Source of the DNA: Salminus brasiliensis | Taxonomy: Eukaryota > Chordata > Actinopteri > Characiformes > Bryconidae | Assembly (NCBI RefSeq): GCF_030463535.1 | Contig: NC_132883.1 | Location: forward strand, 30,819,373-30,883,372 | Length of the DNA: 64,000 nucleotides | Reading direction: 5' to 3' | Part shown: one piece after another, positions 863 to 61,212 of the stretch | How the letters are laid out: each line of letters starts with the position of its first letter | How positions within the stretch are numbered: the stretch's first letter is position 1 | Notes under the pieces: model-generated | Told to the model about the DNA's origin: nothing | Database searches by the model: none | The model's input: the letters and a program-made list of their open reading frames with translations, nothing else | Translations under genes and position numbers: made by a program

Positions 863-1160
863 GACTCAGGGCGGTATTCTCACTGTTGGAGATTCTACTG
901 TGAAACACTTAAAAGTATCGGGCCTGAAGAGTAACTCCACGCTCTCCTGTTTTCTAGGTGCTCATGTCCTGGAGTCTCCAGACGGCTTCCCTCTGCGCTT
1001 TGGCAGCGTGACTCCTTCAATACCATCATTCTCTACTGTTGACCGCCCGATGCAGCAAGGTCCTGAAGGAACACTGCTGCATGCTTCTGGACAGTCTTCG
1101 CCCCCTGCCCACCTACCGAGGAGTGAGCGAGCCGTTTATAATTATAACCTCAGAAAATCT
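863..1160 (+). pseudogene. SGNH/GDSL esterase-like relic, copy 1
   Basis: The sequence reads VGDSTVKHLKVSG from 885, giving an intact block-I G-D-S nucleophile motif. A second piece near 1,090 reads RPLPTYRGVSEPF, the copy closest to the PLPTYRRG motif of LINE-encoded esterases. Frameshifts separate the pieces, and the block-V DxxH end is missing. A product would have been an SGNH-fold hydrolase, but no intact frame remains. Confidence 0.65.
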
Positions 1161-1640
1161 GCTTTAAAAATCTTATTAGAATTAGAATAGAATACTACTG
1201 CTCTTAACGATATTCAGGGATTGTGTTGCTGCTGCCTCCATCCTACGGGTAGGAAAACTGGTAAATGATCATCGACCCAGATTATCAGTGTTATCCTCCT
1301 GATTTCAGTGTGTAAAGCCATTTTCATCTAGATAATGTTTCTGGTCCATCTACAGTTTTTAATCTTAGGTCCGCCTTCCCCTCACTGCATGTTCAGCTTC
1401 TGGGAGAGGGGTCAGAGTAAATGTGTCATTTTCAATGAGGGAAGTCCTCTCCTCTTTCATAGCATCAACCCTCAATGTTGATTTTGTTGAATCTTTTTAA
1501 AGCTCTGTGGTTCATTACAGACCCTGTAGCAGTAGTCGGTGTTGGTCAGTGTCTGATCTCCAATATCTGAATCCGTACGTTAAGTACTGAGGTGCTTTCC
1601 TATCTCTCTTTGGATAGCGTGTACTATCACTCAGTAGCTT
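1161..1640. other. No gene seen; copia sliver at the end
   Basis: Mostly unrecognised sequence. Bases about 1,534-1,620 (TTGGTCAGTGTCTGATCT and onward) match the extreme end of the minus-strand copia module at 47.3 kb. Confidence 0.4.
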
Positions 1641-2250
1641 TTATGATTTCACCTTTCATTTTCAGGAAGTACAGGGACTGCACCTGAGTAATCCTCAGTA
1701 AACGCCAGAGTGTATCTACAACCCTCTTTTGCACACTGGATCTGTAGGAGCAGCTAGGTCAGTATGTACTAGTTCAAGTACTGCTTTTGCTCGAGCATCA
1801 GGTTCTGTTTCTACTCTGAGCAGATTTCTCTTGTCTGCAGACTTCACAGTTCAGTTTATCAATCTTACCCTTGATCTTCATGCTCTCTACTGCATAATGT
1901 GAAACGTCATTACACTGAACAAGGATTTCATGCTCTGAACATTTTCACACATTGTAACCATCACTGTGATCATTGACCACATTCAGGCAATAAAGCCTAT
2001 TGTACTCTTTAATGGGGAACTTGGGACTGTATTTCTGGCTGTTTGTCACGTCCTTGGTGAGAATTCAAAGGCTGTCGCAGTTTCATTCTGAGTGCATCAA
2101 CTCCTCAAGGTTTAGCTATTGCAGTTATTCACACAGAAGTGGTCGCGGCGGCATCACCACAATTCAGTTCAGTTCTATGCACAACCCAAACCTCAGGTTC
2201 TGAAGCTAGTCATTAATAACCTTCCAGAGTACTCTGTCTCACTGACCGTC
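1641..2250 (+). repeat. A-type leader, copy 1
   Basis: Starts near ATTTTCAGGAAGTACAG and runs through CTCGAGCATCAGGTTCTG, AATAAAGCCTATTGTACTC and AATGGGGAACTTGGGA. It ends in TGTCTGTTTACTCTC before the esterase relic. It is nearly identical to 20.09-20.7 kb (offset 18,447) and close to 13.14-13.77 kb. Confidence 0.7.
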
Positions 2251-2880
2251 ATCTGTCTGTTTACTCTCGAGGAACATGGTGATCACGGGGGAACGAGCTC
2301 TCCAGATGTCATCTAGCTTGACCAGCAGATCCAGCTGCTGTTGTAGAGGCAGTCCAAACGCACCAGACGGAAGATGAGGCTGGAGGCTGCATGTGACTCC
2401 TTCAATTAGGCAGTCTTAATTCCAGCACCACCGGAGCAGCGGACACAGAGGGTCGTCATCACCGCTCCCGCATCTGAGAGCCTGGGGGTGTCAGCGTGGC
2501 GGGCAAAAACCGAGGGCTCCTCCCCCACCACAGCCAGGGTTCACCCCTCCTAGCCAATCCGAGGTCCTCAGATTTTCAACTTCATGTGCTTCGTCACAGA
2601 GACTCCTCAGGGCGGTGTTCTCACTGTTGGAGATCTTCTATAAAACACTTAAAGGTATCGACCCTAAAGAGTATCGCCACAATCTCCTGTTTTTCAGGTG
2701 CCGGTGTCCTGGGCGTCACCAATCTGCTTCCCTTTGAGTTGCACCAGCATGACTCGAGGTCCTGAAGGAGCACTGCAGCATGCTTCTGCACACAGTTCGG
2801 AAAAAGACTTTCGCCCCCCTGCTCGCTTCCTGACGAGTGCGCTAGTCGTTTTCCCAGCTCTTCACGCTATGTTTTAAACA
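2251..2880 (+). pseudogene. SGNH esterase-like relic, A subfamily
   Basis: Contains the pre-domain ADPAAVVEAVQT stretch, the proline/serine-rich linker and block I. Block I reads V-G-D-L followed by a stop, because GATTCT has become GATCTT, so the catalytic serine is lost. CRCR-like and CFPGA-like motifs follow, out of frame. It is copied at 20,701-21,310 with the same GDL lesion, so the lesion predates that duplication. Confidence 0.6.
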
Positions 2881-3320
2881 AATTCTGCCAGCCTTGCCTT
2901 AGTCCAGTGTAAGAAATACACTATTTTAACCTGAATTATAATGTTTTAAACACATACATGAGGAGAGTTATCTACAATATTTTACCACCATTCAGTAAAT
3001 ATATTGATAGACAGATGGATCCTCCACCTACTGCTGCTTTAATACTTGTAAAGATTTCATATGAAAGGAGTTCAGTAACAGATATGGTGCCAATTACATT
3101 TTTTATCTGTGGGTTGACATTCAGAACTGTATCTAATAATGACGAGGGAGTTTGTGGACACAAAACTACGTAGCTGCAAATACCTGAAGAAATGAGTTTG
3201 AGGATTAAATTAAATTCAGTTCCAAGTTCAAAAGATTTTTTATCAATAACCTTTTATCAGTAAACAGATTCTTTTAAAACATTTCCTCCTTTTTCTCTCC
3301 AAGATGAAAAGGCCTCATCA
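2881..3320. repeat. Unrecognised module U, copy 1
   Basis: An AT-rich module containing ATTCTGCCAGCCTTGCC, GGACAGATGGATCCTCCACC and TTAATACTTGTAA. It recurs at 9,143-9,600, 21,311-21,770, about 30,420-30,595, 43.11-43.3 kb and 47.7-47.86 kb. A 63-codon minus-strand frame is conserved in two copies but matches nothing I recognise. It often abuts minus-strand copia integrase, so it may be another part of that element. Confidence 0.5.
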
Positions 3321-3665
3321 ATGGTGGCTCTTGAACCTTTTCTGGAGTCTGATCATCACTGCTGGCTGTTGGAATGGGGGGTACACCCCTCTCATTTTGA
3401 GATCATCAGCTTTCATTGACTGGTCAGTCTGGGTTTGCTGTTCTTTAACACACTTTGTGTGAAATTTCACAAGCCTGTGTTTAAGGACTTTCCCTGTGTC
3501 TGGATAGTAGACTAGGTATGATGGACTGTTCTTGTCTGTCCCTACAAAGACACTCTTTCACATTTTGACTCTAGCTTCTATCGGTCCTGTTTATAAGTGT
3601 GGCTCCACATACTCTCCTCTTTGAAAGGTTATGCTTTCTCCCTGTCAAAGTAGAGTTATTGAAGA

Positions 3666-3704
<39 letters not shown>

Positions 3705-3870
3705 CTGCTGAGGTCTCACACCTTATCCCCTGCTTACAGAGCAATGACTGTAAATGTGTTGCTGTGAACTCTGAACCATTATGTGAACAAATACATTTCA
3801 TTGATATGTAGATGAATCGACCAAACATCTATCAGTAGCTTTAACTGTTTCACCCTTAGTTTGTTGTTGA
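3321..3870 (-). mobile_element. Ty1/copia-type integrase fragment
   Basis: The minus strand gives an integrase-core piece (KGETVK..., then a degenerate N-G-S-E-F region). After a microsatellite come the C-terminal integrase motifs around a G-x-D-K-N-S-P-S-Y-L-V-Y-Y-P segment and KHRLVKF. This order is typical of the Ty1/copia integrase C-terminal region. Stops and frameshifts are present, and no LTRs or reverse transcriptase are seen here. Confidence 0.6.
3668..3703. repeat. (TA)18 microsatellite
   Basis: A pure TA run interrupting the copia fragment. The same site holds only a few TA units at 22.18 kb and none at 17.46 kb, so it expanded here. Confidence 0.95.
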
Positions 3871-4640
3871 AGTTCACAGCCTGCATCTGAGTAATCCTCA
3901 GTAAATGTCTGAGTGGACCTACAACCCTGGATCTGTCCTAAAGCTCCTTAAATTAGTAACCTCATTTAATATTCACGAAGCTTCAGCCGCATTGGTCAGT
4001 ATATAATGCGTAGTCTCAGATAATTAGGAGCCTCCGCTGTAAAGCAGCAGCGTGGTCTTGCAGCAGTGTGCAGGACAAACGAGCCGGTGTGACCGAGCTC
4101 TGTAGCTCTGTGATACAAACTAAGCTGCTGTTCATTTAGTTTGGGAATGGCTTAGTTCTGTTGCTATGCTAGCTTTCTCCTTAGCAATGTAGCTTCAGTT
4201 TTTACTTATGTATTACTGAATCTTCATGGATTATTTTTTCACATGTTTCACTCTTCTGAGCTGTTTTAGGTTAGTATGGATGGTGTAATTCTGTGGATTT
4301 GTGCAAAATTTGTGTTCTTTGTCAACGTCCTGGTGTTTATTGAACTACTGCTCAGAGGCTGTTGCTATTCCTCTCTTCGTCCTTGTGGGGGCGCTAAAAC
4401 CCCATAGGTTAACCTGTGAAAACGGTCAGAGGCAGGTTAAAGCTGGTGTCTTGCTAGAAGCTCTGAGTGGTAATTATTAGCTTTGTTTCTCCTGCCTGTT
4501 GAGCGTATACACATCTCTCTTTGAATGAAGTCATTTAGTAGCACTATGATATAGACCTGGAACCTTTCTGAACTTCACCCCCCCCCTTACTGAATCTATA
4601 GGTCCAGCCAGGTCAATCTGTACTGCTTTTGGCGATTGCG
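3871..4640 (+). repeat. C-type leader, copy 1
   Basis: Runs from CCTGCATCTGAGTAATCC through TATATAATGCG, AGGAGCCTCCGCTG, TTGTGGGGGCGCTAAAACC and ACATCTCTCTTTGAATG, to a poly-C tract and TACTGAATCTATAGG. Recurs at 6.1, 14.0, 22.36, 28.34 and 41.04 kb. In this copy the GTAAGC donor-like site is changed to CTAAGC. Confidence 0.65.
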
Positions 4641-5265
4641 GAGGAACAAGCTCTCCAGATGCTCTGCAGGGAGGTCGTCAAGCCTGACCGACTGATCCAG
4701 CTGCTGTTGTAGAGGCAGTCCAAACTCCACCCACGGAAGACGAGGCTGGAAGCTGCCTGTGACTCCTCCAACACGACCGTTTTAACTGCAGCACTATCGG
4801 TGCGGCAACTCCTCAGGTCGGTGTTTTCACTGTTGGAGATTCTTCTGTAAAAAAAGTATCGACCCTAAAGAGTAATGCCGCGGTCTTCTGTTTTCCAGGT
4901 GACCATGTCCTGGACGTCACCAGGTGACTTTGGCACCATCGTTCTCCACTATTCTCCTCCTTATGCAGCGTGGCCCTGAAGAAGCACTGCCGTACGCTTC
5001 TGGACACTGTTTGGAAAAAGCCAGACACCAGGATCATAGTCCTCTGCCCCCTGCCCACTTACCGACGAGTGAGCGAGATGTTTCCAGCTCTTCTCATTCC
5101 ACTGCTGGCTGCGGGACAGGTCCATCTGTGCTGACCGTAGAGAACCAGGAGAGCTTTCGACTGCGTCCTGTCCTCTAACACAGAGATGAGCTTCACCTGA
5201 GCCTTTTGGGGTCCATCGTTCTCTCCGCTAACTTCAAGAAGGTGCCAGGCCAGGACTGACTGACC
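4641..5265 (+). pseudogene. SGNH esterase-like relic, C subfamily
   Basis: Frames give an EEQALQMLCREVVK start, V-G-D-S-S in block I, then VLDV, ALKKHCRTLLDT, RIIVLCPLPTYRRVSEMF and an H-R-D-E-L-H block V. All the expected esterase blocks are present in order. Frameshifts separate them, and six bases after GDSS are lost. The RIIV-to-YRRVSE stretch is the best preserved in the window. Confidence 0.7.
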
Positions 5266-5570
5266 CTTCCCAGTCACACTGTCAGGTTAGTGAACTGTGT
5301 AGTTGGTGATTTAGTGATTTACATAATTTACCTGTTCCACCCATTTATTGTCACTTGTATTGTCACTTGTATTATTGTTGCTTGTATTAAAAAGTAATAT
5401 ATCAGTGTCACACATAGTATTTCAGGCACATCCTGCAGTATCGAGACTGTCATGGTTTGTAATTGTAACTTTGGAAAATCTGCTTTAAAAATCTTATTAG
5501 AATTTATATGAATTCTTCCATCTTTGCGAGTACAAGCAGTTCTACTGTTAAATTTGGGCTGTTAAATATA
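5266..5570 (+). repeat. Module 3' tail
   Basis: Follows the esterase stop. It contains CCATTTATT, GCTTGTATTAAAAAGTAAT (an ATTAAA polyadenylation-type hexamer) and AAATTTGGGCTGTTAAATA. The same tail follows relics at 8.24, 14.66, 29.35, 33.42, 42.06, 46.1 and 55.68 kb. Confidence 0.6.
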
Positions 5571-5819
5571 CACTGGGGCAAAAAAGTATTTAGTCAGCCA
5601 CTGATTGTGCTTATTGTGAAGTTCTCCCACTGAGAAAGATAAGAGGTCTGTATTTTTTATCATAGGTACACTTCAACTATGAGAGAGCAAATGAGGGGGG
5701 GGAAAAGCCAGGAAACACAGTGTAGGATTTTTAAAGAATTTATTTGTAAATTATGGTGGAAAATAAGTATTTGGTCACCCACAAACAAGCAAGATTTCTG
5801 TCTCTCACAGACCTGCAGC
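5571..5819 (+). mobile_element. Tc1/mariner family A, 5' end only
   Basis: Begins right after a TA with a CAGTGGGGCAAAAAAGTATT-like inverted-repeat start (here CACTGGGG), and continues through the GTATTTGGTCACCCACAAAC internal repeat to ACAGACCTGCAG. No transposase coding remains. The right edge is an abrupt switch to module R sequence. Confidence 0.85.
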
Positions 5820-6100
5820 ACTGGTTTTATAGTCTCCATACATTGCCCCCTGAATTTACTAGGAAGTGACTTATTGGGAGCTTTCAGTCTAAACCTACAA
5901 TGTACAGATTCAGAGGCAGGTTAAAGCTGGTGTCTTGCTAGAAGCTCTGAGTGGTATGATGGACTGTTCTTGTCGTACCTACAAAGACTCCCTTTCACAT
6001 TTTGACTCTAGCTTCTATCTGTCATGTTTGTAAGTGTAGCATGCTGCTCCACATACTCTCCTCTTTGAAAGGTTATGCTTTCTCTCTGTCGGCGTAGTTT
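5820..6100 (-). mobile_element. Module-R piece and short copia integrase piece
   Basis: Bases 5,821-5,915 match the module containing GACTTATTGGGAGCTTTCAG. About 5,954-6,100 is a 150-base minus-strand copia integrase C-terminal sliver, matching 17.3-17.45 kb. Confidence 0.5.
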
Positions 6101-6870
6101 AGCCTTAGTTTTCAGGAAGTTCAGACTGCATCTGAGTAATCCTCAGTAAATGTCTGAGTGGATCTCCAACCCTGGATCTGTTGAAAAGCTCCTTTAATTA
6201 GTAACCTCATTTAATATTCACCAAGCTTCAACCACATTGGTCAGTATATAATGCATAGTCTCAGCCAATCAGGAGCCTCCGCTGTAGAGCAGCAGCGTGG
6301 TCTTGTAGCAGTGTGCAGGGCGAACGAGCCGGTGTGACCGAGCTCTGTAGCTCCTCTGGAAGACTGAACTTTAGAAATTGCTCAAGCTGTGTGACTGTGG
6401 GTGCCTTTCATTTAGAGTCTGTGACACAAAGTAAGCTGCTAGTTTGGGAATGGCTTAGTTCTGTTGCTGTGCTAGCTTTCTCCTTAGCAACGTAGCTTCA
6501 GTGTTTACCTATGTATTACTGAATCTTCATGGTTTGCTGTTGTTTCTTCACATGTTTCACTCTTCTGAGCTGTTTAAGGTTAGTATGGATGGTGTAATTC
6601 TGTGCATATTTGCTATATTTGTGTTCTTGGTCAAGGTCCTGGTGTTTATTGAACTACTGCTCAGAGGCTATTGCTATTCCCCTTTTTGTCCTTGTGGACA
6701 AACCCCATAGTTTAGGCTGTGGAAACGGTCAGAGGCATGTTAAAGCTGGTGTCTTGCTAGAAGCTCTGAGTGGTAATTATTAGTTGAGTTAGTATGTTGA
6801 GCGTATACACATCTCTCTTTGAATGAAGTCATTTAGTAGCACTACGATATAGACCTGGAACCTTTCCTAA
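6101..6870 (+). repeat. C-type leader, copy 2
   Basis: Same module as at 3,871. It has an extra exon-like stretch, AAATTGCTCAAGCTGTGTGA to GTGACACAAAGTAAGC, shared with the X-unit promoter segments. It keeps the GTAAGC donor-like site near 6,430. Confidence 0.6.
6236..6270 (+). promoter_or_regulatory. TATA/CCAAT-like cluster in C leader
   Basis: An inverted CCAAT (ATTGG, 6,236-6,240), a TATATAA-like stretch from 6,245 and a forward CCAAT at 6,265-6,269 sit within 35 bases. The cluster is retained at 14.15 and 22.48 kb, and without the forward CCAAT at 4.0 kb. The spacing is not that of a standard promoter, so this is only a candidate. Confidence 0.25.
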
Positions 6871-7458
6871 CTTTTATTTAATATTGTGCATGTATTCTGT
6901 TTATTTCAGAGTCTTTATTCTTCAGCCTGTCCTCAGTTCTTCCTCATTCACTTATTCATCATTCACCCATAACGCTGTCATTTCTAATGCCCAGTGCTCC
7001 ATGCTTCAGCCTCTTTGTAAACCCAGTCTCATTCAATACAACAAGAACTAGTACATACTGACCTAGCTGGTCCTAGATGTAGTACTACTTTTGCTCGAGC
7101 ATCAGGTTCTGTTTCTACTCTGAGCAGATTTCACAGTTCAGTTTATCAATCTTACCCTTGATCTTCATGCTCTCTCCTGCATAATGTGAAACATCATAAT
7201 TACAGTGAACAAGGATTTCATGCTGTTTTTATATTGTAACACACTGCAACCATCACCACTGTGATCATTGACCACATTCAGGTAATAAAGCCTATTGTAC
7301 TCTTTAATGGGGAACTTGGTACCATTTCTGTGGCCTTGTCTTCTTTTTATTAGCTTTGTCTTCTTTATCTTAGCCAGTTGTTGTGATCCTTGTTCTCTGC
7401 TGCCTGTTACTGTACAGTACTGTCTTACTAACTGTGTTTCTGTCTGTGTTTTTACTCA
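6871..7458 (+). repeat. A-type leader with inverted segment and acceptor-like end
   Basis: The A leader follows about 170 unrecognised bases. Bases 7,045-7,078 are inverted relative to other A leaders. The leader ends in a pyrimidine-rich TGTGTTTTTACTCAG immediately before the longest clean frame of the esterase relic, which looks like a splice acceptor. Confidence 0.55.
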
Positions 7459-8236
7459 GATGCGACCACGGAGGAACGAGCTCTCCAGCAGGTCGTCAAG
7501 CTTTGTACGGCAGATCCAGCTGCTTTTGTAGAAGATGTCCAAACTCCACCGACGGAAGACGAGGCTGGAGGCAGGCGGTGACTCCTCCAACGCCGTCGTC
7601 TTAATTCCAGCACTACCGGTGCGGCGGACACCGGGTCATCGTCTCCCCTCCCGCACCTGAGAGGGTCTGGGAGTGTCAGCGTGGCTTGGAAAAGCAGAGG
7701 GCTCCTCCACCACCACAGCCGGTTTTTGCCTCTGCTAACTGTTCGAGTTCCTCAGCTCTTCACCTGCTCCGGCACCGAGGACGACTCCTCAGGGTAGTGT
7801 TCTCACTGTTGGAGATTCTTCTGTAAAACACTGAAAAGTATCAACCCTAAAGAGTAATGCCACGGTCTTCTGTTTTCCAGGTGCCCGTGTCCTGGACATC
7901 ACCAGGTGGCTTTGGCACCATCGTTCTCCACTATTCTTCGTCCTGATGCAGCGTGGCCCTGAAGAAGCACTGCTGTACGCTTCTGCACATTGTTTGGGGG
8001 GAAAAAAGACAGACACCAGAATCATCGTCTTCCACCCCCTGACCACATGACGACTGAGCGAGCAAGCCGTTTCCTCAGCTCTTCTCACTCCACTGCTGGC
8101 TGCGGGACAGGTCCGTCTGCACTGACTATGTAGAGAACTGCGTCCGGTCCTCTAACACAGAGATGAGCTTCACCTGAGCCGCCTGGGGTCCATCATTCTC
8201 TCCGGAAACATCAAGCAGGTGCCAGGACAGGACTGA
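7459..8236 (+). pseudogene. SGNH/GDSL esterase-like relic, most complete copy
   Basis: A clean 40-codon frame from 7,459 (DATTEERALQQVVKL..., then ADPAAFVEDVQTPPTEDE) ends at TGA. A proline/serine-rich linker follows. Block I (V-G-D-S-S-V-K-H, GDS at 7,811-7,819) continues in one frame, with one stop, through KSNATVFCFPGARVLDI. After frameshifts come ALKKHCCTLL, TDTRIIVFHPLTT and block V H-R-D-E-L-H (8,156-8,173), with a terminal TGA at 8,234. The G-D-S and D-x-x-H spacing of about 115 codons fits an SGNH hydrolase. It could derive from LINE ORF1 or from a lost gene. It is clearly broken. Confidence 0.75.
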
Positions 8237-8467
8237 CTGACCTGCCAACTATGCAGTTCACCAACCTGACAGTGTGACTGGGAAGGGTAAGTGATTTACT
8301 TGATTCCACTCATTTATTCTGTCACTTTTCTGCTTGTATTAAAAAGTAATAGATCAGTGTCACTCATAGTGTTTCAGACAAATCCTGCAGTATTGAGACT
8401 GTCTGTACCCCGCATGGCTTAATTGTAACGTCGGAAAATGTTTTATAAATCTTATTAGAATTTATAT
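8237..8467 (+). repeat. Module 3' tail with ATTAAA
   Basis: Common tail. ATTAAA at about 8,338 lies roughly 100 bases past the esterase stop, a normal distance for a poly(A) signal in a short 3' UTR. Confidence 0.5.
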
Positions 8468-9142
8468 AAATTCCTCCATCTTTCCGTAACTTCTTTAAGA
8501 AGCTCTTCTGTCCTCTACTCGTTACCTGTATTAATGGAACCTGTTTGACCTCGTTATCTGTATAAAACTCTAAAACTCTAAACTCTGAAAATACAGGTAA
8601 TTTAGGGGAAGACTGGATTGGCTGTTTGAAGGCGTCATTTTTAGACAAAACCAAAACGTGTGCCTGTGTTGATTGTTTGACATCTTTTGTAGAAGATGTC
8701 CAAACTCCACCGACGGAAGACGAGGCTGGAGGCAGGCTGTGACTCCTCCAACGCCGTCGTCTTAATTCCAGCACTACCGGTGCGGCGGACACCGGGTCAT
8801 CGTCTCCCCTCCCGCACCTGAGAGGGTCTGGGAGTGTCAGCGTGGCTTGGAAAATTCCTCCATCTTTCCGTAACTTCTTTAAGAAGCTCTTCTGTCCTCT
8901 ACTCGTTACCTGTATTAATGGAACCTGTTTGACCTCGTTATCTGTATAAAACTCTAAAACTCTAAACTCTGAAAATACAGGTAATTATACAGATAACTGT
9001 TTGACCTCGTTATCTGTATAAAACTCTAAAACTCTAAACTCTGAAAATACAGGTAATTTAGGGGAAGACTGGATTGGCTGTTTGAAGGCGTCATTTTTAG
9101 ACAAAACCAAAACGTGTGCCTGTGTTGATTGTTTGACATCTA
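8468..9142. repeat. Templated tandem duplication
   Basis: About 8,468-8,683 is repeated at 8,852-9,142. Between the two copies lies a 171-base copy (8,684-8,854) of the esterase segment 7,523-7,693, with one mismatch. Inside the second copy, 8,926-8,986 is repeated at 8,998-9,058 around an 11-base filler (8,987-8,997) that is the reverse complement of GTTATCTGTAT. The base sequence includes a Tc1 family-A internal piece. Confidence 0.9.
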
Positions 9143-9600
9143 TCACACATTAGATTCATGTTTTAAACAAATTCTGCCAGCCTTGCCTCTCCAGTGTAAG
9201 AAATGCACTATTTTAAACTGAATTATAATGTGTTTAAACATATAGATGAGGAGAGTTATCTACAATATTTTACCACCATTAAGTAAATATATTGATGGAC
9301 AGATGGATCCTCCACCTACTGCTGCTTTAATACTTGTAACAATTTCATATGAAATGAGTTCCTGTAACTGATATGGTGCCAATTACATTTTTTATCTCTA
9401 GGTTGACATTCAGAACTGTATCTAATAATGACGAGGACGTTTGTGGACACAAAACTATGCAGCTGCAAATACCTGAAAAAATGAGCTTGAAGATTAAATT
9501 CAGTTCCAAGTTCAAAACCTTTTATCAATAAACAGATCCTTTAAGACATTTCCTCCTTTTTCTCTCCAAGATGAAAAGGCCTCATCAATGGTAGAGGGAG
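9143..9600. repeat. Unrecognised module U, copy 2
   Basis: Same module as at 2,881, ending at GATGAAAAGGCCTCATCAATGG. No gene. Confidence 0.5.
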
Positions 9601-9791
9601 TGAACGTTGTTGTTCATCAGGCTGTATGTAGATAATTCATTTAGTGAAAAGGCTCTTCCAAACTGCAGCCAGATTTTCAGGCACTGTATCACAGTCTGGT
9701 TTAGTGAACAGCTAGACGAAGATTCTGGTATGGGTAGTTTTGAGTAGAGCAACACGTGTAACGTGCAGAACAGCCCTGATGTTCGAAGCCC

Positions 9792-9831
<40 letters not shown>

Positions 9832-9860
9832 GCGAAAATCTGGTTTCAATAAGCAGCTGT
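9601..9860. other. Unrecognised sequence with (AAT)n
   Basis: No gene seen. A pure AAT microsatellite of about 13 units occupies 9,792-9,832. Confidence 0.6.
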
Positions 9861-10028
9861 AGGGGGCAGTGGTGGCTTAGCGGTTAGAGCTCCAGGCAAT
9901 TGATGACAGGGTTGAAGGTGAGATGCCTATGCTCTGCAAACTGCCACTCTTGAGCAAGACCTTCACCTTCTTTTGTGAGCGCTGCAGCAATGGCTGCTCA
10001 CTGCTCCAGGTACATGTGCTCACTTTTC

Positions 10029-10078
<50 letters not shown>

Positions 10079-10140
10079 CACTGCACAGCTGTGTTATGGG
10101 GGGGTGAAGACAAATTCCATCCGTGTCTCAAAAAATGGTG
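9861..10140 (+). mobile_element. tRNA-derived SINE with (TG)n
   Basis: Starts AGGGGGCAGTGGTGGCTTAG. TGGCTTAGCGG (9,873-9,883) matches a Pol III A box. A degenerate B box lies near GGTTGAAGGTGAGATGCC. The body ATGGCTGCTCACTGCTCC is typical of a common fish SINE. A (TG)23 run (10,031-10,077) fills the middle of the tail. Confidence 0.75.
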
Positions 10141-12632: not shown

Positions 12633-12659
12633 ATTAGCAGCAACAACATCATGAAATTC

Positions 12660-27015: not shown

Positions 27016-27029
27016 GTCCTGCTAGTTAC

Positions 27030-49854: not shown

Positions 49855-50100
49855 AAAATTTACTAGAATGTGACTTATTGGGAGCTTTCAGTCTAAACCT
49901 ACAATGTACAGATTCATGTTTTTCTGCTGCTAGTCCTAGTATAGGGATATTTCCTCTTAAAATAGACCCAGTAGAATATTCTTGATCTGACAGAGCAGAG
50001 AACCTGATACGTCACATGGAGCTCTGCCCAAGGTTGAATAGAAGAATACTGTACAGTACTCTCTCACTGACCCTTATGTGTGTGTGTGTGTTTGTGTGTG
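49855..50100 (+). repeat. B-type leader, shortened
   Basis: Lacks the GATGGTTTTGACAATATG part. TG runs at about 50,076-50,102. Confidence 0.5.
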
Positions 50101-51835: not shown

Positions 51836-52245
51836 AACAACATCATGAAATTCTTTGGATTTTTAGTGTAATATTCTCTATTTTATCATCAATATCAGTC
51901 CCAAACCACAGCGATAGACAATGATGAATGCTGCACTACATACCTACAGTACTTTAGCTCCGTTACAGAAGACGATTTGCTCAATATAATGAGCTCCTCT
52001 AAATCGTCATCATGTAGATTAGAGCCGGTACAAACACTGTTGTTTAAACAGGCACTGCCAAAGGTTGGTAAACCATTAATGGACATAGTTAATGCATCTC
52101 TTGGGATGAACTTCATACCTAAATCTCTTAAATTGGCGATTATAAAGCCCATTATTAAAAAGCCTAATCTGGACCCCCATGACCTGGCCAGTTATAGACC
52201 AAGTTCTAATCTACCCTTCGTCGCCAACATTTTAGATCTCTCCCC
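51836..52245 (+). mobile_element. L2-clade RT fragment, best preserved
   Basis: Open through RT blocks 0-1: SSCRLEPVQTLLFKQALPKV, MDIVNASLGMNFIPKSLKLA, IIKKPNLDPHDLASYRP and SSNLPFVANIL (canonical SYRPISNLPF). No frameshift, unlike 36.2 and 59.2 kb. Confidence 0.8.
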
Positions 52246-52425
52246 CCTCATGTCCTGAGCTGCCTGTCTGGAGTTGCCCTTTTTTGGGTCAGTTCCTGCG
52301 TTTTGGTATCGGGCCTGTCCCGCTACTCAGCAGAGTTCCAACACAACCATCCTAACACCCCCCGCTCTCTCTCTCGCTCTCTCTCGCTCACGAAGATGCC
52401 CTGCCATGGAGGTGTCCATTGTTTT
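52246..52425. repeat. Low-complexity CT-rich segment
   Basis: Short version of the 12.66 kb segment with a CTCTCTCTCTCG tract. Confidence 0.6.
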
Positions 52426-52798
52426 GCAGGTGCCCGTGTCCCAGACATTGCCAGGTGGCTTTGTCACCATCGTTCTCCACTATTCTCCGCCTGATGCAGC
52501 GTGGCCCTGAAGAAGCACTGCCGTACGCTTCTGGACACTGTTTTGAAAAAGCCAGACACCAGGATCATCGTCTTCTACCCCCTGACCACATAAGGATTAG
52601 TGAGCGAGCCATTTCCTCAGCTCTTCTCGCTCCACTGCTGGCTGCGGGACAGGTGCGTCTGTGCTGACTTCGTGGACAACTAGGAGAGCTTTCGGCTGTG
52701 TTCGGTTCTCTAACACAAAGATGAGCTACACCTGAGCCGTCTGGGGTCCATTGTTCTCTCCAGGAACATCAAGAAGGTGCCAGGCCAGGACTGAGTAG
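52426..52798 (+). pseudogene. SGNH C relic without block I
   Basis: ARVPDIARWLCHHRSPLF, ALKKHCRTLLDTVLKKPDTR, IIVFYPLTT, then an FVDN-like stretch and H-K-D-E-L-H-L-S-R-L-G. Frames shift twice. Stop TGA at the SINE junction. Confidence 0.65.
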
Positions 52799-53015
52799 CA
52801 GCTGTAGGGGGCAGTGGTGGCTGTAGGGGGCAGTGGTGGCTCAGTGGTTAGGGCTCTGGGCTATTGATGACAGTGTTGTGGGTTTGATGCCTGGGCTTGT
52901 CAAACTGCTGCAGCGCCCACAAAAGAAGATGAAGGCCTTGCTAAAGAGTGGCAATGGCTGCCCACCACTCCAGGGATGTGAGCTCACTGTCCACTGTGTG
53001 TTTCACTGTGTGTCA
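52799..53015 (+). mobile_element. tRNA-derived SINE with duplicated head
   Basis: The 19-base head CTGTAGGGGGCAGTGGTGG is present twice in tandem (52,802-52,839). A box TGGCTCAGTGG at 52,837-52,847, degenerate B box near GGGTTTGATGCCTG. Confidence 0.75.
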
Positions 53016-53275
53016 CTAGACGTTTCAATATTCTGTGTATCCGTTGTTTTCAGGAACAGACAGATGGTGGCTTTTGTTACTTTGGTAGTGGGATTTGCTT
53101 CTCTGGCATTTTTTCACAGTTTGAGGTTCCCCCGAGATCCCAATATTCCTCTGGGTCCAGAGTTTTCAGAGACAGGATCAGAAACCGACAGAGGCGGCCG
53201 CCGTCATCCCAATGAGTGATTCTGAGTCAATTCAGGCGCTCTACTGACTCCGAGACTCTGTACCCGAGGTGACTG
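53016..53275 (+). repeat. Module-R core
   Basis: Ends at CGAGGTGACTG and switches to the gag-like module. Confidence 0.5.
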
Positions 53276-53891
53276 CAAGCAAATTAATTAGACCACTTGC
53301 CTTACGAATTTAGAATAAACAGGAGGAGACGAGACGCCGTATTCTTTCAGACTTTCAGGTTACTTTAATCCGGAATTTTCATATTTGTTTTAGACCATTT
53401 GACTTTTTGCAGCGATCCGGACTCAAAGGACGAAGATGTCCAAAGCATTGCCTTAAGATCATTTCAGTCTCACTGTTATCTCAGAAACTTCAAATTTTAC
53501 TAAGTTTGGATCCCTGAAAAATTCTCTGGTTTAAACAGACAAGATTTTAGGAGATTTAATTCAGTACTGTTCAACCTAGAGAATCTTGTAAAGGGATCCA
53601 AATTCATTTTTTAGAAAATGAAAAGGTTTAAATCAAGATTTTGGAAATAAATGTTGTTTTTCTGGACTGTTCAAATACGAGATTTCGATGGTTATAAGAC
53701 AAGGGAGTAGAGTTTATAATACCCAAAGAGTTCAGACTATACACATGAAATTAACACATAAGGAGACATTGTTACAAGCTTAGTTAATGTACAAACGGAC
53801 TGAGGCAGGGGACTCTGGAGCAGGCGAGATTGAAGGTAGGAGAGAATGTGCTTGTTTTAATTGTGGGAAATCAGACTGTTCTGCGAGATTG
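53276..53891 (+). mobile_element. Gag-like module, diverged copy
   Basis: Shorter than other copies. The zinc-knuckle frame is open: GDSGAGEIEGRRECACFNCG, then KSDCSAR. Confidence 0.4.
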
Positions 53892-54659
53892 CAATATTTA
53901 GTAGATCCTCCTTTTGCAGAAATAATAGCCTCCAAACGCTTCCTATTGCTTCCAATGAGAGTCTGGATTCTGGTTGAAGGTATTTTGGACGTTCTTTACA
54001 AAATATCTCCAGTTCAATCAGGTTTCATGGTTTCTGAGCAAGGACAGCCCGCTTTAAATCACACCCCAGATTTTCTGTAATATTCAGGTCTGGGGATTGA
54101 GATGGCCGTTCCAGAATGTCCTTGTTCCTCTGCATGAGTGCCTTAGTAGATTTTGAGCAGTGTTTCGGGTCGTTGCGCTGAATAGTTGAACGATGCAGCA
54201 AGATGATGATGTAGGTCTTTGGAGCTGGTCTGTGGGTTGACTATGACTGTTCTCACCATCCTTCGCCTTTTCTTGGCCTGCCACTTCGGGCCGTGACTAG
54301 AACTGCGCCTGTGGTCTTCGATTTCGTCACCATGTTCCTCACAGTGGAAACTGACAGCTGAAATCTGAGAGAGCTTTTTGTATCCTTCCCCAAAACCATG
54401 ATGTTGAACGATCTTTCTTTTCAGGTCATTTGTGAGTTGTTTTGAGGGTCCCATGTTTCCACTCTTCAGAGAAGAAGAGGAGAAAAACTTGCAACCTCCT
54501 TCTCATAATTGGATTCACCTGTATATGTAGTTCAAGGGTCAGTGAGCTTACAAAACAAATGTAGTGTTTTAATAATTAGTGCTAAAGGTATTCAAATCAA
54601 TAAAACAACAAGGGTGCCCACATTTATGCACCTGCCTAATTTTGTTTAAATAATCTTCA
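53892..54659 (-). mobile_element. Tc1/mariner family B, internally deleted, diverged copy
   Basis: Same join of N- and C-terminal parts as 44,319. The deletion edge near GATGCAGCAAGATG differs, breaking the frame at about 103 codons. Confidence 0.8.
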
Positions 54660-55000
54660 TCTTTTTCTCTCTCCCCTCATGTCCTGAGCTGCCTGTCTGG
54701 AGTTGCCCTTTTTTGGTTCAGTTCCTGCGTCTTAGTATCAGGCCTGTCCCTCTACTCAGCAGCCTTCACCTACTTCATACCTCAAGGACAACCCCTCAGG
54801 GCAGTGTTCTCATTGATGGAGATTCTACTGAAAACCACTTAAAAGTATCGAGCCCAAAGAGTGACACCACTGTCTCCTGTTTTCCAGATGCTAACTTCGC
54901 CATGTTGCTTCCCTTGGCACTGTGGCAGCGTGATGCCTTTGACACAATCATTCTCTACTGTTCTCCTCCCGATGCAGCGAGTTCCTGATGTTGGTGAACT
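54660..55000 (+). pseudogene. SGNH relic, D subfamily, open 91 codons with GDS
   Basis: Second copy (54,713-54,988) of the open D frame with LIDGDSTENHLKV and TIILYCSPPDAASS. Differs from 46,923 by a handful of codons, none of them stops. Confidence 0.6.
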
Positions 55001-55575
55001 GAATAGTTGGCAGGTAAGTAATTTTACATAGTTTTTCTATTTTAATAACCATTTATTCTGTAATTTCTCTGCTTGTATTAAAAATTAATTTGGTCAGTAT
55101 CTGACACCCAGTCCTGAAGTGCTTTCCCATCTCTCTTTGAAACGTGTGTACCATGTCTGTCTCCCTCTGTTTGAGCATCATCTTGAGCATCAGTTTTGGA
55201 CTCTTGAACCTCTTCTGGAGTCTGATCAACACTGCTGGCTGTTGGAATGGGGGGGTGCACCCATCTCATCTTGGGATCATCAGCTTTCATTGACTGGTCA
55301 GTCTGGGTTTGCTGTTCTTTAACACACTTTGTATGAAATTTCACAAGCCTGTGTTTAAGGGCTTTCCCTGTGTCTGGATAGTAGACTAGGTATGATGGAC
55401 TGTTCTTGTCTGTCCCTACAAAGACTCCCTTTCACATTTTGACTCTAGCTTCTATCTGTCATGTTTGTAAGTGTAGCATGCTGCTCCACATACTCTCCTC
55501 TTTGAAAGGTTATGCTTTCTCTCTCTCAGCGTAGAGTCATTGAAATTCATATATAGAGCTGCTGAGGTCGTACGC
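55001..55575 (-). mobile_element. Ty1/copia integrase fragment
   Basis: Near-identical to 32,736 and 45,425. Close identity to X1 starts here. Confidence 0.65.
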
Positions 55576-56114
55576 CTTTTCACCTGAGCCGCCTGGGGTA
55601 CATCGTTCTCTCCGGGAACATAAAGAAGGTGCCAGACCAGGACTGACTGACCCCTCCCAGTCACACTGTCAGGTTAATGAACTGCATAATTGGCAGGTAA
55701 GTGATTTACATGTTTCCACCCATTTATTCTGTCACATTTCTGCTTCTATTAAAACGTAATAGATCAGTGATACTCTGAGCATTTCACTCAAATCCTGCAG
55801 TATTGAGACTGTCATGGTTTGTAATTGTAACGTCGGAAAATCTGCTTTAAAAATCTTATTAGAATTTATATAAATTCTTCCATCTTTCCAAGTACAAGCA
55901 GTTCTACTGTTAAATTTGGGCTGTTAAATATACGATCTCTAGCCCCTAAAGCAGCCATTGTCAATGAAGTTATTTTAAATTGGGTGAAATTGGGTAATAG
56001 AACAGTAAAACACTGGTTTTATAGTCTCCATACATTGCCCCCTGAGTTTACTAGGAAGTGACTTATTGGGGGCTTTCAGTCTAAACCTTAACCTACAGTC
56101 TAAACACTACAATG
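55576..56114 (+). pseudogene. SGNH C-terminal tip, tail, module-R scrap
   Basis: Copy of 33,311-33,850. Confidence 0.5.
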
Positions 56115-56582
56115 TCACAGTGGAAACTGACAGCTGAAATCTGAGAGAGCTTTTTGTATCCTTCCCCTAAACCATGATGTTGAACGATCTTTGTTTTCAG
56201 GTCATTTGTGAGTTGTTTTGAGGCTCCCATGTTTCCACTCTTCAGAGAAGAAGAGGAGAAAAACTTGCAACTGGCCACTTTAACCTCCTTCTCATAATTG
56301 GATTCACCTGTATATGTAGGTCAAGGGTCAATGAGCTTAGAAAACAAATTTAGTGTTTTAATAGTTTGTGCTAAAGGTATTCAAATCAATAAAACAAGGG
56401 TGCCCACATTTATGCACCTGCCTAATTTTGTTTAAATAATTATTGCACACTTTCTGTAAATCCTATAAACTTCATTTCTCTTCTCAAATATCACTGTGTT
56501 CATCTACTTTGATGTATTCAACTGAAATTGATGATCTGAATAACCATTAATTTTATAAAGGAAAATCGTCAAAATTATCATA
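56115..56582 (-). mobile_element. Tc1/mariner family B N-terminus
   Basis: Copy of 33,851-34,335, but the last bases before the L2 join are deleted (ATCATAG joined to TTTTTACACC). Confidence 0.75.
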
Positions 56583-56975
56583 GTTTTTACACCTTACAAC
56601 CCTCCACGTACACTCCGCTCACAAGATGCTGGCCTATTATCGGTCCAACATATTAGAAAAACCAGTGCAGGAGGAAGAGCGTTCTTTTATAAAGCCCCCA
56701 ACTTTGGAACAACCTCCCTGTTAATGTACAGGAATCAGACACACTCTCAGTCTTTAAATCTGGAGTAAAAACTTCTCTCTTTACACCAGCTTTCAGAGAA
56801 CTCTCCAGTTCTGTGTTCTGTCCTGCTCTGATTACAGTTCACCACTATTCTGTCCTGCTCTGATTACAGGCTGTTTATTACTATTATTGTGGTTGTGTCT
56901 CTAACTATTTCTGCTACAGGTCTACAGGGCACTAAAGGTAAAGCTTGTTCTAATCTTCTTCATTTTCTCTCTCTC
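56583..56975 (+). mobile_element. L2-clade LINE 3' end
   Basis: Copy of 34,336-34,715. Confidence 0.65.
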
Positions 56976-57655
56976 CTCATGTCCTGAGCTGCCTGTCTGG
57001 AGTTGCCCTTTTTTGGTTCAGTTTCTGTCTTGGTACTTTAATGGGGGACTTGGTACTATTTTTGTGGCTATGTCTTTTTATTTGTTTTATCTTCTGTGTT
57101 TTTACTCAGGAGCTCTTCAGGAGGTCGTCAAGATCCATTACGGCAGATCCAGCTGCTGTTGTAGAGGCAGTCCAAACTCCACTGGCGGAAGACAAGGCTG
57201 GGGGCTGCCCGTCACCTCCATCGTGACCGCGGGGGACACAGAGGGTCAGCTTCTCCTCTCCCGCGCCTGAGAGGGCCTGGAAGTGTCAGCGTGGCTGGGA
57301 AAAGCCGAGGACTGTTCCACCACTTCAGCCGTTTTTCACATCTGCCAGCTGGTTCGAGGACCTCAGCTCTTCACCTCACCCGAGTCCTCAGGGCGGTGTT
57401 CTCACTCTTGGAGATTCTTCTGTAAAAACCCTGAACAGTAATGCTGCGGTCTCCTGTTTTGCAGGTGCCCGTGTTCCGGACATTGCAAGGTGGCTTTGTC
57501 ACCATCGTTCTCCACTATTCTCCTGATGCAGCTTGGCCCTGAAGAAGCACTGCTGTACACTTCTGTACACTGTTCAGAAAAAGTCAGACACCAGGATCAT
57601 CGTCTTTAACCCCCCCAGACACCCCCCCTCCCTTCCGCCCACTTACTGACAAGTG
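56976..57655 (+). pseudogene. SGNH relic with acceptor-like start (X2)
   Basis: Copy of 34,716-35,400: acceptor-like TTTTTACTCAG, ELFRRSSRSITADPAAVVEA, L-G-D-S-S. One extra G near 57,203 breaks the long pre-domain frame that is open in X1. Confidence 0.65.
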
Positions 57656-58400
57656 TAACTGACTGACTGTACAGCAAGGTGTTTTTGTCAGACTCCGTTC
57701 TGAAGTCTTCCACCGGCGTTACGTTTACTGCAGGATTAAAGTGTTTCTCTACATTCCTAAGACTGACTGATTGAGTTGATTCTTTAAGTGCAGAGAAGCA
57801 AATCCCACTACCACAGTTTTGGAGGTTCCACCGAGATCCCAATATTCCTCTGGGTCCAGAGTTTTCAGAGACAGGATCAGAAACAGACAGAGGCGGCCGC
57901 CGTCATCCCAATGAGTGATTCTGAGTCAATTCAGGCACTCTACTGACTCCGAGACTCTGTACCCGAGGTGACTGTGCCAAATAAGCTAGTGAGTACAACA
58001 GTTTCAGTACTTATGAAGGAGTCAGTACCCATATCCATCAGTACGGACACAATTCTAACAGTGGATGTTTCAGGCTTACCACTCAACATTTTTGCAGTCC
58101 TGTGAAGGTGAAATTGGGTAATAGATCAGTAAAACACAAAATTTACTAGAACGTGACTTATTGGGAGCTTTCAGTCTAAACCTACAATGTACAGATTCAG
58201 GTTTTTCTGCTGCCCTAGTATAGGTCTATTCCTCTTAAAATAGACCCAGTAGAATATTCTTGATCTGACAGAGCAGAGAACCTGATGCGTTACATGGAGC
58301 TCTGTCCAAGGCTGAATAGAAGAATCCTCCATTTTTACATTGTTTTATTTGTCTCCAGATGGTTTTGATGAACATACTGTACAGTACTCTCTCCCTGACC
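57656..58400 (-). repeat. Module R and B leader (X2)
   Basis: Copy of 35,401-35,967, continuing into the B leader that X1 has lost. Confidence 0.5.
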
Positions 58401-58610
58401 GTTGTGTGTTTCTATCTGCGTTTACTCTGGAGGAACTTGGCGACCCCGGAGGTGTAAGATCTCCAGGTGCTCTGCAAGGAGGTCGTTAAGCTTGACTGCT
58501 GCTGTTGTAGAGGCAGTCCAAACTCCACCGACTGAAGACGAGGCTGGAGGCTGCCTGTGGCCTGGAAAAGCAGAGGGTGCCTCCACCACCACAGACGGTT
58601 TTCACCTTAA
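58401..58610 (+). pseudogene. SGNH B relic, N-terminal part
   Basis: Pre-domain and the start of the linker, then joined at about 58,611 to L1. Block I onward is missing. Confidence 0.55.
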
Positions 58611-59057
58611 CTTAATCCGAGCACTAAGCAATACATTTTATCTGCAAGGCACAAATCTTTCAAAGCCCTCAAATCAGGAGTGAATTAACCGAATTTCTTA
58701 TGTTGAATCGGGGTTCAGTGGATGATCAGAGGTTTGTTGGGAGCAGTGAATGATTTCTTTAGGAATAATTCTATTGCATTTGATTTGTCCCTTTTTTTTG
58801 CCTTTGTCACCAAGAAGCAATGATGCTTTTTACAGCCTCTATATTCAGAAGCCATATGTCCCAAAGGAAACCTTAAATATTGCCCCCTTTTTCCATTCCT
58901 TAGATTTGCCACAATTGTCCACTGACGAGGCATCTTATTTAGATCAGGATATTTCTACTCTAGAATTAAAAGACTCTCTGTCAGATGAAAAAAGGGAAGT
59001 AGCCAGGATTGGACGGCATGACGAGTTTAATTCATTCTTCTAGCTTCATTCTTATTC
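58611..59057 (+). mobile_element. LINE-1 ORF2 fragment (pre-RT)
   Basis: A 97-codon frame with FFHSLDLPQLSTDEASYLDQ, as at 51,522. Confidence 0.7.
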
Positions 59058-59095
59058 TTCAGCAGGGATAATTTAGCTCAGTTATCCCTGCTGAA
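59058..59095. repeat. Perfect 14-bp hairpin
   Basis: Same arms as 12,596-12,632, with a 10-base loop. Confidence 0.95.
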
Positions 59096-59505
59096 ATTAG
59101 CAGCAACAACATCATGAAATTCCTTGGATTTTTAGTGTAATATTCTCTGTTTTATCATTAATGTCAGTCCCAAACCACAGCGATGGACAATGATGAATGC
59201 TGCACTACATACCTACAGTACTTTAGCTCCGTTACAGAAGACGATTTGCTCAATATAATGAGCTCCTCTAAATCGTCATCATGTAGATTAGAGCCGGTAC
59301 AAACACCGCTGTTTAAACAGGCACTGCCAAAGGTTGGTAAACCATTAATTGACATAGTTAATGCATCTCTTGGGATGAAATCTCTTGACCTAAATCTCTT
59401 AAATTGGCGATTATAAAGCCCATTATTAAAAAGCCTAATCTGGACCCCCATGACCTGGCCAGTTGTAGACCAAGTTCTAATCTACCCTTCGTCGCCAACA
59501 TTTTA
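59096..59505 (+). mobile_element. L2-clade RT fragment
   Basis: Copy of 36,141-36,545 with the same frameshift after LGMKSLD. Confidence 0.75.
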
Positions 59506-60067
59506 GTTCTCTCCCCCCTCATTTCCTGAGCTGCCTGTCTGGCGTTGCCCTTTTTTTGGGTCAGTTCCTGTGTTTTGGTATCGGGCCTGTCCCGCTACTC
59601 AGCAGAGTTCCAACACAACCATCCTAACACCCCCCACCCCCCCTCTCTCTCTCGTACTGAGATGCCCTGCCATGGAGGTGTCCATTGATCCATGTTCCAG
59701 AATCAGGCCTGTCCCTCTACTCAGCAGAGCTTTTTTACACAAGTCTCCTAACCCTTTCTTTCTTCCTTTCGTTTCTCTCTTTATCTCTTTTGCATGTGCT
59801 GTGGTGCCCTGTTCCTCCTGCTGTGCCCTGATGTTTGCTCAGATACACATACTTAATCAGCACTTTAACATTAATGCTGATCATATGTCCAGCACCTACT
59901 CACAAACATACTTCATAACCTGCTCCTACATTAGCTATAGCTCTGCATTATCTCTCTGTTCAGCACCTACTCACACTCCTACTTCATAACCTGTTCCTAC
60001 AATAGCTATAGCTCTTCATTATCTCTCTGTTCAGCACCTACTCACACTCCTACTTCATAACCTGTCC
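59506..60067. repeat. Low-complexity segment and 71-base minisatellite
   Basis: C/CT tract near 59,630. The 71-base units start at 59,890, 59,961 and 60,032. Confidence 0.75.
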
Positions 60068-60946
60068 CCCACATAGTTTGTAATTGTAATGTCAGAATAT
60101 TGGTTTTAACATTGTTGTTGTTTAGGAGTTTATCATTTTAATATTTATATTAAATATTTGAGTCCTTGTTGCGACTGACTGCAGTGGTTATTACAACAGA
60201 TGTCCAGAATTCTTTAGGTAATTTGATCTCTACTAGCATTCACCTTTCCATATCAAATAGGCTTCTCCAATTTTTTAGATGTTGTGATCAAGGTGCTGAG
60301 GTCTCAAGCCTTATGCCTTTCTTTCTGATCAACTCCACCACTCTACTGACTCCGAGACTCTGTACCCGAGGTGACTGTAAGTAAATGAAATAGACTGTTT
60401 GCCTTACGAATTTAGAATAAACAGGAGGAGACGAAACGCCGTATTCTTAGACCTTCTGGTTACTTTAATCCGGATCCCTTTTGATATTTCAATTTTCAGA
60501 TTGGTTTTAGACCATTGACTTTTTGCAGCGATCCAGACTCAAAGGACAAAGATGTCCAAAGCATTGCCTTGAGATCATTTCAGTCTCACGGTTGTCTTCG
60601 AAACTTCAAATTTTAATAAATTTGGATCCCTGAAAAAGTCTCTGGTTTGATCAACCCTGAGAATCAAAATATTCAGACAATGACTGAAAATCCCTTGCTG
60701 TGAACTCTGTGCCATTATCTGAACAAATACATTTATTGTTCCATATGGAGAAAAGTCAGTCCAGCATCACTCTGTAGCTTCTACACTTTCACCCTTCATT
60801 TTCAGGAAGTTCACAGACTACACCAGAGTTATCCTCAGTAAACGCCAGAGTGTCTCTACAACCCCTTTTGCACCCTGGATCTATAGGAACAGCTAGGTCA
60901 GTATGTACTAGTTCAAGTACTGCTTTTGCTCGAGCATCAGGTTCTT
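60068..60946. other. Mixed remnants, no gene
   Basis: Copy of 37,111-37,990: unrecognised, gag-like start, copia sliver, A-leader end. Confidence 0.45.
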
Positions 60947-61212
60947 CAAAACACTGTTTTGAAAAAGCCAGACACCAGGATCATAGTCTTCTACCACGTG
61001 ACCACATAACGATTAATGAGCGAGCCATTTTCTCAGCTCTTCTCGCTCCACTGCGGGCTGCGGGACAGGTGCGTCTGTGCTGACTTAATGGACAACTAAG
61101 AGCTTTCGGCTGCATTCGGTTCTCTAACACCGAGATGAGCTTCACCTGAGCCGTCTGGGGTCTATTGTTCTCTCCAGGAACATCAAGAAGGTGCCAGGCC
61201 AGGACTGACTAG
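60947..61212 (+). pseudogene. SGNH C relic, C-terminal half (X3)
   Basis: Copy of 37,991-38,253. Confidence 0.6.

Follow-up and report, generated by a model that had tools for sequence, protein, structure and literature searches.

The window analysed here is a stretch of 64,000 nucleotides from Salminus brasiliensis (contig NC_132883.1, referred to as C6, positions 30,819,373 to 30,883,372), in which relics of an SGNH-type esterase recur on a single strand. These relics are part of a tandemly amplified array with copies on at least ten contigs. The strand of the copies depends on the side of a putative centromere on which they lie, and on C6, copies from both sides of it are nearly identical. 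The overall explanation is probably that a dead fragment of open reading frame 1 (ORF1) of a long interspersed nuclear element (LINE) was amplified in pericentromeric arrays that point only outward. The esterase relic itself is an ordinary dead LINE fragment, and the interest lies in its setting, namely the outward-only arrays and a satellite with an intron-like box. A more specific reading is put forward tentatively, with nearly balanced confidence. It holds that the pericentromeric arrays obey a chromosome-wide polarity, outward on both arms, which is upheld by ongoing exchange between arms and between chromosomes, and that the satellite is built round a mini-intron-like box of about 50 bp.

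Array strand and the side of the putative centromere

The distribution of the arrays was obtained by searching the genome (1,066 Mb in 103 contigs) with the fullest relic of the window, which gave 177 matches; the best 150 of 7074 candidates were scored, and 150 rows were listed. Among these, relic arrays occur on at least ten contigs. Copies on both strands are present on C3, C6, C8, C16, C17 and C27, and on each of these contigs the minus-strand copies lie to the left of every plus-strand copy, with one switch per contig. With the sides set by the position of the satellite, all 98 listed relics on the two-sided contigs follow the order of minus on the left and plus on the right, and all 37 listed relics on the one-sided contigs C5, C13 and C14 point outward. 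This corresponds to 135 of 135 assignable rows and 15 of 15 arm-arrays, the other 15 rows being located on C28. Three further array queries, for which the best 40 of 3996, 5031 and 2581 candidates were scored, gave 46 of 46, 40 of 40 and 40 of 41 rows in the outward orientation, on C6, C27 and C8. The sole inward row is a 41-bp fragment on C8.

Intact dispersed LINE ORF1 sequences were used as a control, with 10 outward and 7 inward copies. These are the 17 assignable copies among 45 typed rows with a full-length, stop-free ORF1, obtained with the zebrafish ORF1 esterase 4c1b as the query (best 150 of 1980 candidates), and four of the 10 outward copies adjoin on C16 (11.7-12.5 Mb) and may be non-independent. 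Partial or stop-bearing rows were excluded from this control, as were 13 full-length, stop-free rows, all on the plus strand, from one cluster on C18, which has no known satellite and is not assignable.

Satellite was surveyed in 81 sampled stretches between and around the arrays. A tandem satellite fills 45 of them; its orientation is uniform within each stretch, with 22 stretches running one way and 23 the other, and nine of the ten array contigs yielded it. None of the 20 outer stretches, located outside the arrays of C5, C6, C13, C14 and C27, contained satellite. Eleven of these lie elsewhere on the arms and nine just outside the arrays of C5, C13 and C14, where the satellite was initially sought only on the side predicted by the rule and the nine outside stretches were sampled later. 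At the sampled points, the satellite extends with interruptions from about 24.0 to 29.3 Mb on C6 and from about 15.0 to 20.95 Mb on C27, and the left and right arrays are about 8 Mb apart on C6 and 6 Mb on C27. Its location between or beside the arrays, its megabase span and its contig-specific units of 150-211 bp suggest that the satellite domains are putative centromeres. Both satellite orientations occur on C6, C8 and C27, with a switch mid-domain on C6 and C8 and a uniform orientation except for the left edge on C27, and a single orientation is found on C3, C5, C13, C14, C16 and C17. A first idea derived from C6, that the satellite is mirrored on every contig, was dropped since denser sampling gave both orientations only on the three contigs named.

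The best-conserved part of the satellite is a box of about 50 bp shaped like a complete mini-intron, with a GTAAGT donor, a branch-like TATTGACT, a pyrimidine tract and a CAG acceptor. Its mean pairwise identity over eight satellite unit consensuses is 0.84-0.87 in the first 40 columns, compared to 0.21-0.39 mid-unit. The box was located at L040-L047 (without L046), L050, L051, L053, L054, L056, L057, L060, L061, L064, L065 and L079, on contigs C3, C5, C6, C8, C13, C16, C17 and C27. Between the satellite and the right-hand arrays of C6, at 30.0 Mb (L049), low-complexity arrays rich in AAAGACAAAGAAG were observed.

The left-arm copies L002 and L003 of C6 (22.63-22.64 Mb) match the window with an identity of 99.2% over 4 kb and 99.5-99.6% over 2.5 kb, and two neighbours within the window share 99.28% over the same 2.5 kb. 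A left-arm segment of C8 is 90-92% identical to the right arm of C8, compared to 84-86% to C6 and C27. A tree was built from 38 rows, comprising 30 loci and 8 pieces of the window; in it, the sole left copy of C3 groups with five right copies of C3 with full support. Based on this cross-arm similarity on C6, C3 and C8, the arms of one chromosome share variants in inverted orientation.

A scenario that could explain these patterns starts with one LINE fragment, which would have landed in a DNA segment adjoining a centromere and lost its reading frame through a shared 29-bp deletion and stops. As the array structure and the shared deletion show, the segment was amplified in tandem and copied to the putative pericentromeres of several chromosomes, with the relic carried passively. 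Where two outward-pointing arrays undergo exchange, conversion or break-induced copying, the resulting chromosomes would have one centromere and be kept, and exchange with a wrongly oriented array would result in two centromeres or none, with the products being lost. The orientation relative to the centromere may have been kept because only exchange between outward arrays leaves products with one centromere. The left and right arrays of one chromosome would continue to exchange sequence, since on C6 the copies from opposite sides of the centromere resemble each other as closely as neighbours do. The unit would act as a pericentromeric tandem repeat, probably in heterochromatin. If the chromosome-wide polarity put forward above holds, the strand of an array could serve as an internal marker for the position and the history of the centromere, akin to the telomere-ward orientation of subtelomeric repeats. 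Polar complex arrays that are nearly identical across a putative centromere offer a sequence-level test of pericentromere exchange between arms and chromosomes. They also test whether dicentric or acentric products set repeat orientation, a question that is usually closed, such regions having formerly been unassembled.

Several points weigh against this explanation. The satellite has a single orientation on six of the nine contigs where it was found, so that the central region is no plain mirror image, and on C28, with its 15 relic rows, no satellite was found in four sampled stretches. Two matches lie on the inward strand. One is L094 at 20.5 Mb on C27, which is 82% identical over 182 bp and has satellite samples on either side, at 20.25 and 20.65 Mb; the other is L111 at 22.9 Mb on C6 (65% over 244 bp). 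For C27, the tree seems to intermix the copies of the two sides, but the fork has a support of 93/85, which is under the program's mark for strong support. Since only the best candidates were scored per search, in the numbers given above, weaker exceptions are undercounted, and copies inside one array are not independent. The centromeres are putative, being placed by position and satellite, and the proposed exchange is argued from similarity.

The islands L094, inside the satellite domain, and L111 are diverged pieces of the relic unit that may be left over from older layers. Four other sampled stretches (L058, L075, L078 and L092) have matches to the window that are short or weak, and the outer control stretch L127 matches the window weakly as well, at 62%.

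Identity and decay of the esterase relics

A relic consensus was derived by taking the majority letter of each column, with stops written as X. In a sequence search of the Protein Data Bank (PDB), it matched 4c1b, the ORF1p esterase of the zebrafish LINE ZfL2-1, with E=4.1e-24 over residues 5-166 of the 171-aa chain. The first-pass annotation had proposed a consensus profile search for SGNH hydrolases; scans of the relics against Pfam and NCBIfam gave nothing, and the relationship emerged from the PDB search instead. In IMG/VR, 17 stretches fit a pattern and none of them is a relative. Given the match to the ZfL2-1 esterase, the relics are decayed copies of an SGNH esterase domain that belonged to ORF1 in an old LINE of L2/CR1 type; a lost host gene is not supported as their source. 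According to Schneider and colleagues (PMC3905857), ORF1 of ZfL2-1 carries an SGNH-type esterase, a kind that was discovered first in the CR1 clade.

The relic shares the SGNH family and the motif order with the ZfL2-1 esterase. The order of the G-D-S, CFPGARVLD, PLPTYRRVSE and D-E-L-H motifs, which had been recognised from the letters at first pass, is real, though it is spread across frames and stops. GDS is present in some relics and DELH in several, and the consensus has both. In contrast to the zebrafish protein, the relic has stops, a frameshifting 29-bp deletion in most copies spanning the site, and a broken block III, with YSPPD or CSPPD in relics where 4c1b has GTND, a motif absent from every frame of the window. 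It further differs from the ZfL2-1 LINE in that it sits in a tandem array with no adjacent ORF2 seen; in the ORF list, no ORF of at least 90 aa after a relic resembles ORF2, with a profile scan covering part of these ORFs. The leader upstream of the esterase, the place of the coiled coil in this LINE type, is badly decayed. The relic is therefore counted as a descendant of an L2/CR1 LINE ORF1 esterase and not as a working member.

The deletion covers 29 alignment columns between the GARVLD and IVLH parts. Of the 30 loci L009-L038, which lie on C3, C6, C8, C14 and C27, 29 carry it, and in the remaining locus, L032, the deletion pattern did not match. The longer form is kept by five window relics and aligns to 4c1b without a gap at the deletion site. 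Because the deletion is common to loci on five contigs, the relic ORF was already dead when the array spread, with the relic as a passenger. None of the 150 listed relics is free of stops. In the window, 36.4% of substitutions fall at codon position 3 in the 35 of 78 ORFs with enough matches, and the same ORFs have 374 frameshifting compared to 55 in-frame indels. A protein-coding role for the array was rejected on the basis of these two results; the window array is without coding constraint, and the esterase has no function here.

Intact dispersed LINEs are also present in the genome. Their ORF1 encodes an esterase (Lipase_GDSL_2, E=2e-13), and an endonuclease ORF2 (Exo_endo_phos, E=1.2e-11) comes next; they were found on both strands (L066-L071). 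In the alignments shown, they are 31-32% identical to the relic and, due to this low identity, represent a family other than that of the relic. The first-pass annotation had left the choice between a family of LINE ORF1s and a lost gene that was multiplied as a cassette. The match to 4c1b bears out the former, and the latter is not supported because the only solved relative is a LINE ORF1 and intact two-ORF LINEs with a homologous ORF1 esterase exist in the genome. Dispersed copies in both orientations with an attached ORF2, which had been named as the mark of an ordinary LINE, were found for the other LINE family and, in the rows examined, not for the relic's own lineage. Esterase LINE copies, both intact and decayed, are numerous in the genome. 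Some of these other copies form same-strand clusters, located at 14.0-20.4 Mb on C12, 34.4-36.3 Mb on C18, 8.6-13.7 Mb on C4, and 10.7-11.2 and 13.9-15.2 Mb on C16. On C16, one group forms a reverse mirror, with plus on the left and minus on the right.

Alternative explanations and known systems

That about 30 independent L2 insertions happened to share one strand is barely credible. The many esterase LINE copies in the genome speak for such insertions, but the shared flanks refute them, as non-LINE DNA and unrelated transposon relics have the same repeat structure and orientation. In addition, a deletion is common to the copies, and the intact dispersed LINEs are without a clear side bias (10 versus 7). 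There is also only a very slight chance that the array stems from a lost host gene with an esterase domain that was amplified as a cassette. Host SGNH genes exist, and GT-AG-like signals in the unit are in favour of this origin. However, the solved relative is a LINE ORF1, although this is the result of a search of the PDB and not of cellular protein databases. The genome also has intact LINE ORF1s that carry this domain and have an endonuclease ORF2 behind them, and there is no coding constraint.

Other explanations concern the mirrored arrangement. A Robertsonian-type fusion, in which two one-armed ancestors with outward pericentromeres joined to form the mirror and the arrays diverged only later, has to be considered but is unlikely. 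It accounts for minus on the left and plus on the right of each contig, and the mid-domain switches of the C6 and C8 satellites are in line with it, but the satellites have one orientation on C3, C5, C13, C14, C16 and C17, and likewise on C27 apart from the left edge. A separate fusion would be required for each contig, and the near-identity across the C6 centromere requires later exchange anyway. The same near-identity, with left and right copies as alike as neighbours, also argues against outward layering, in which the centromere core would expand from an inverted seed and displace older blocks to both sides, so that mirrored flanks arise without exchange between arms. This is quite unlikely, even though arrays lie on both satellite edges, since the satellite is mostly one-directional. 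Furthermore, layering predicts older and more diverged flanks farther outward, and the diverged islands L094 and L111 are instead situated closer to the satellite or within it. Repeats that are mirrored and nearly identical are a recognised assembly hazard, and the comparison of the arms covers the arrays and not their unique flanks. Nevertheless, an inverted duplication of collapsed pericentromeres during assembly is highly unlikely, because the same order is present on all six two-strand contigs and the left and right copies differ in sequence (99.2-99.6% identity on C6 and 90-92% on C8).

Known systems resemble the arrays in part. Centromeric inverted repeats of fission yeast and Candida recombine into isochromosomes (PMC12795605). 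As in these yeasts, pericentromeric repeats are opposite on the two arms here (all 98 listed rows on the six contigs with arrays on both sides), but the fission yeast repeats flank a central unique sequence (PMC12795605), whereas here tandem arrays flank satellite domains on several chromosomes. The closest published pattern found is the macro-dyad satellite of Tribolium, which is smaller and lies within the satellite itself, with palindromes that measure from a few kb up to several tens of kb (PMC13081366). The authors of that work consider macro-dyad symmetries to be documented so far in Tribolium only (PMC13081366). Both cases share inverted halves in putative (peri)centromeric repeats (PMC13081366), but the mirror described here is a single one at chromosome scale, made of complex flanking arrays around a mostly one-directional satellite. 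In humans, the SST1 array is inverted on chromosome 14 compared to 13 and 21 and is a proposed source of Robertsonian fusions (PMC11057876). This case illustrates the rule applied in the scenario above, by which exchange between shared arrays fuses chromosomes or not depending on how the arrays are oriented to one another, but the human model concerns the short arms of the acrocentrics 13, 14 and 21, with one array per chromosome (PMC11057876). The outward-pointing mirrored arrangement was not found in the literature on mirrored pericentromeres, LINEs and fish satellites, mostly titles and abstract openings, which is no proof of absence.

Composition of the window

The window is a tandem mosaic array in which the esterase is one passenger, and the array copies on this arm of C6 span about 30.61-31.54 Mb. 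In a self-comparison, 96.4% of the window is covered by direct matches and 4.3% by inverted ones, with 1358 direct versus 80 inverted high-scoring segment pairs (HSPs). Blocks of 4 to 6 kb recur with 97.7-99.35% identity at offsets of 12.7, 22.3 and 23.0 kb (Table 1). Ten marker segments, including the Tc1-like, copia-like and reverse transcriptase-like fragments, have 112 of 112 matches of at least 60 bp in one orientation per segment, a count that includes the markers themselves. The single strand is a property of the whole array and not special to the esterase, and since the whole array shares this pattern, the 30 relics are not 30 independent events. The preference for tandem amplification over independent insertion, expressed before any search was made, is confirmed by these repeat units and direct self-matches.

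The relics were located by blastn with the fullest copy, window positions 7401-8500, as the query, and the resulting HSPs were grouped into places. This gave 30 separate places between 865 and 61210, every one on the plus strand, which agrees with the initial description of about 30 same-strand relics at 863-61212. The three different leaders noted at that stage are a fair wording for the mosaic joins and the deletions that precede the esterase part. Just nine matches, of 30-57 bp, lie on the minus strand, inside or beside plus-strand copies. All nine correspond to one short part of the query and are explained by a small inversion at 8236-8292 in the query copy itself.

Table 1. Array units, transposon-like fragments and esterase relics in the window (window coordinates).
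Feature	Position	Strand	Remarks
Tandem/mosaic array stretch	1..64000	.	G000:C6:30819373-30883372; self-matches
Higher-order unit	27979..34175	.	repeated 40678-46864, 98.9%
Higher-order unit	35972..41049	.	repeated 58931-64000, 99.35%
Higher-order unit	31754..35978	.	repeated 54048-58237, 97.7%
Tc1/Sleeping Beauty-like transposase relic	44373..44963	-	Pfam HTH_SB E=2e-07, under curated cut-off; 8 array matches, single orientation
Copia-like polyprotein fragment (SH3_retrovirus)	45502..45855	-	Pfam E=1.2e-4, under curated cut-off; 8 matches, single orientation
Fragment resembling L2-type reverse transcriptase (presumed)	51872..52258	+	3 matches, single orientation; no profile match
Relic 1	865..1196	+	without 29-bp deletion; GDS, CFLGAHVLE
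Relic 2	2234..2868	+	with leader; blastn
Relic 3	4632..5528	+	carries RIIVLCPLPTYRRVSE and DELH
Relic 4	7401..8500	+	fullest copy, reference
Relic 5	8684..8884	+	leader piece
Relic 6	10993..11702	+	blastn
Relic 7	13745..13943	+	leader only
Relic 8	14555..14859	+	3' part
Relic 9	17535..17989	+	blastn
Relic 10	18761..19490	+	blastn
Relic 11	20681..21247	+	blastn
Relic 12	23056..23585	+	blastn
Relic 13	24351..24821	+	blastn
Relic 14	28850..29565	+	blastn
Relic 15	32496..32836	+	without 29-bp deletion
Relic 16	33314..33624	+	3' part
Relic 17	34813..35355	+	blastn
Relic 18	37988..38254	+	blastn
Relic 19	41549..42264	+	blastn
Relic 20	45185..45525	+	without 29-bp deletion
Relic 21	46003..46310	+	3' part
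Relic 22	46970..47311	+	without 29-bp deletion
Relic 23	49152..49332	+	blastn
Relic 24	50099..50786	+	blastn
Relic 25	52420..52794	+	blastn
Relic 26	54760..55101	+	without 29-bp deletion
Relic 27	55579..55889	+	3' part
Relic 28	57071..57614	+	blastn
Relic 29	58375..58607	+	leader
Relic 30	60944..61210	+	blastn

The fragment at 51872..52258 gave no hit in Pfam at E values up to 1 and none in the PDB below E=0.24; a motif in it suggests that it may resemble an L2-type reverse transcriptase. An open frame of 103-118 aa is present in three plus-strand copies (26704-27015, 39544-39900 and 62500-62856), one of which was scanned and is without a Pfam match. Compared to other array copies, micro-inversions of 52-57 bp are located at 8236-8292, 16509-16560 and 15197-15248, the first of which is flanked by short inverted arms. 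The tails of the relic units, for example around 29390 and 42090, end in an AG/GTAAGTG-like sequence followed by a TTTCAG-like site, so that an exon-like reading is possible.

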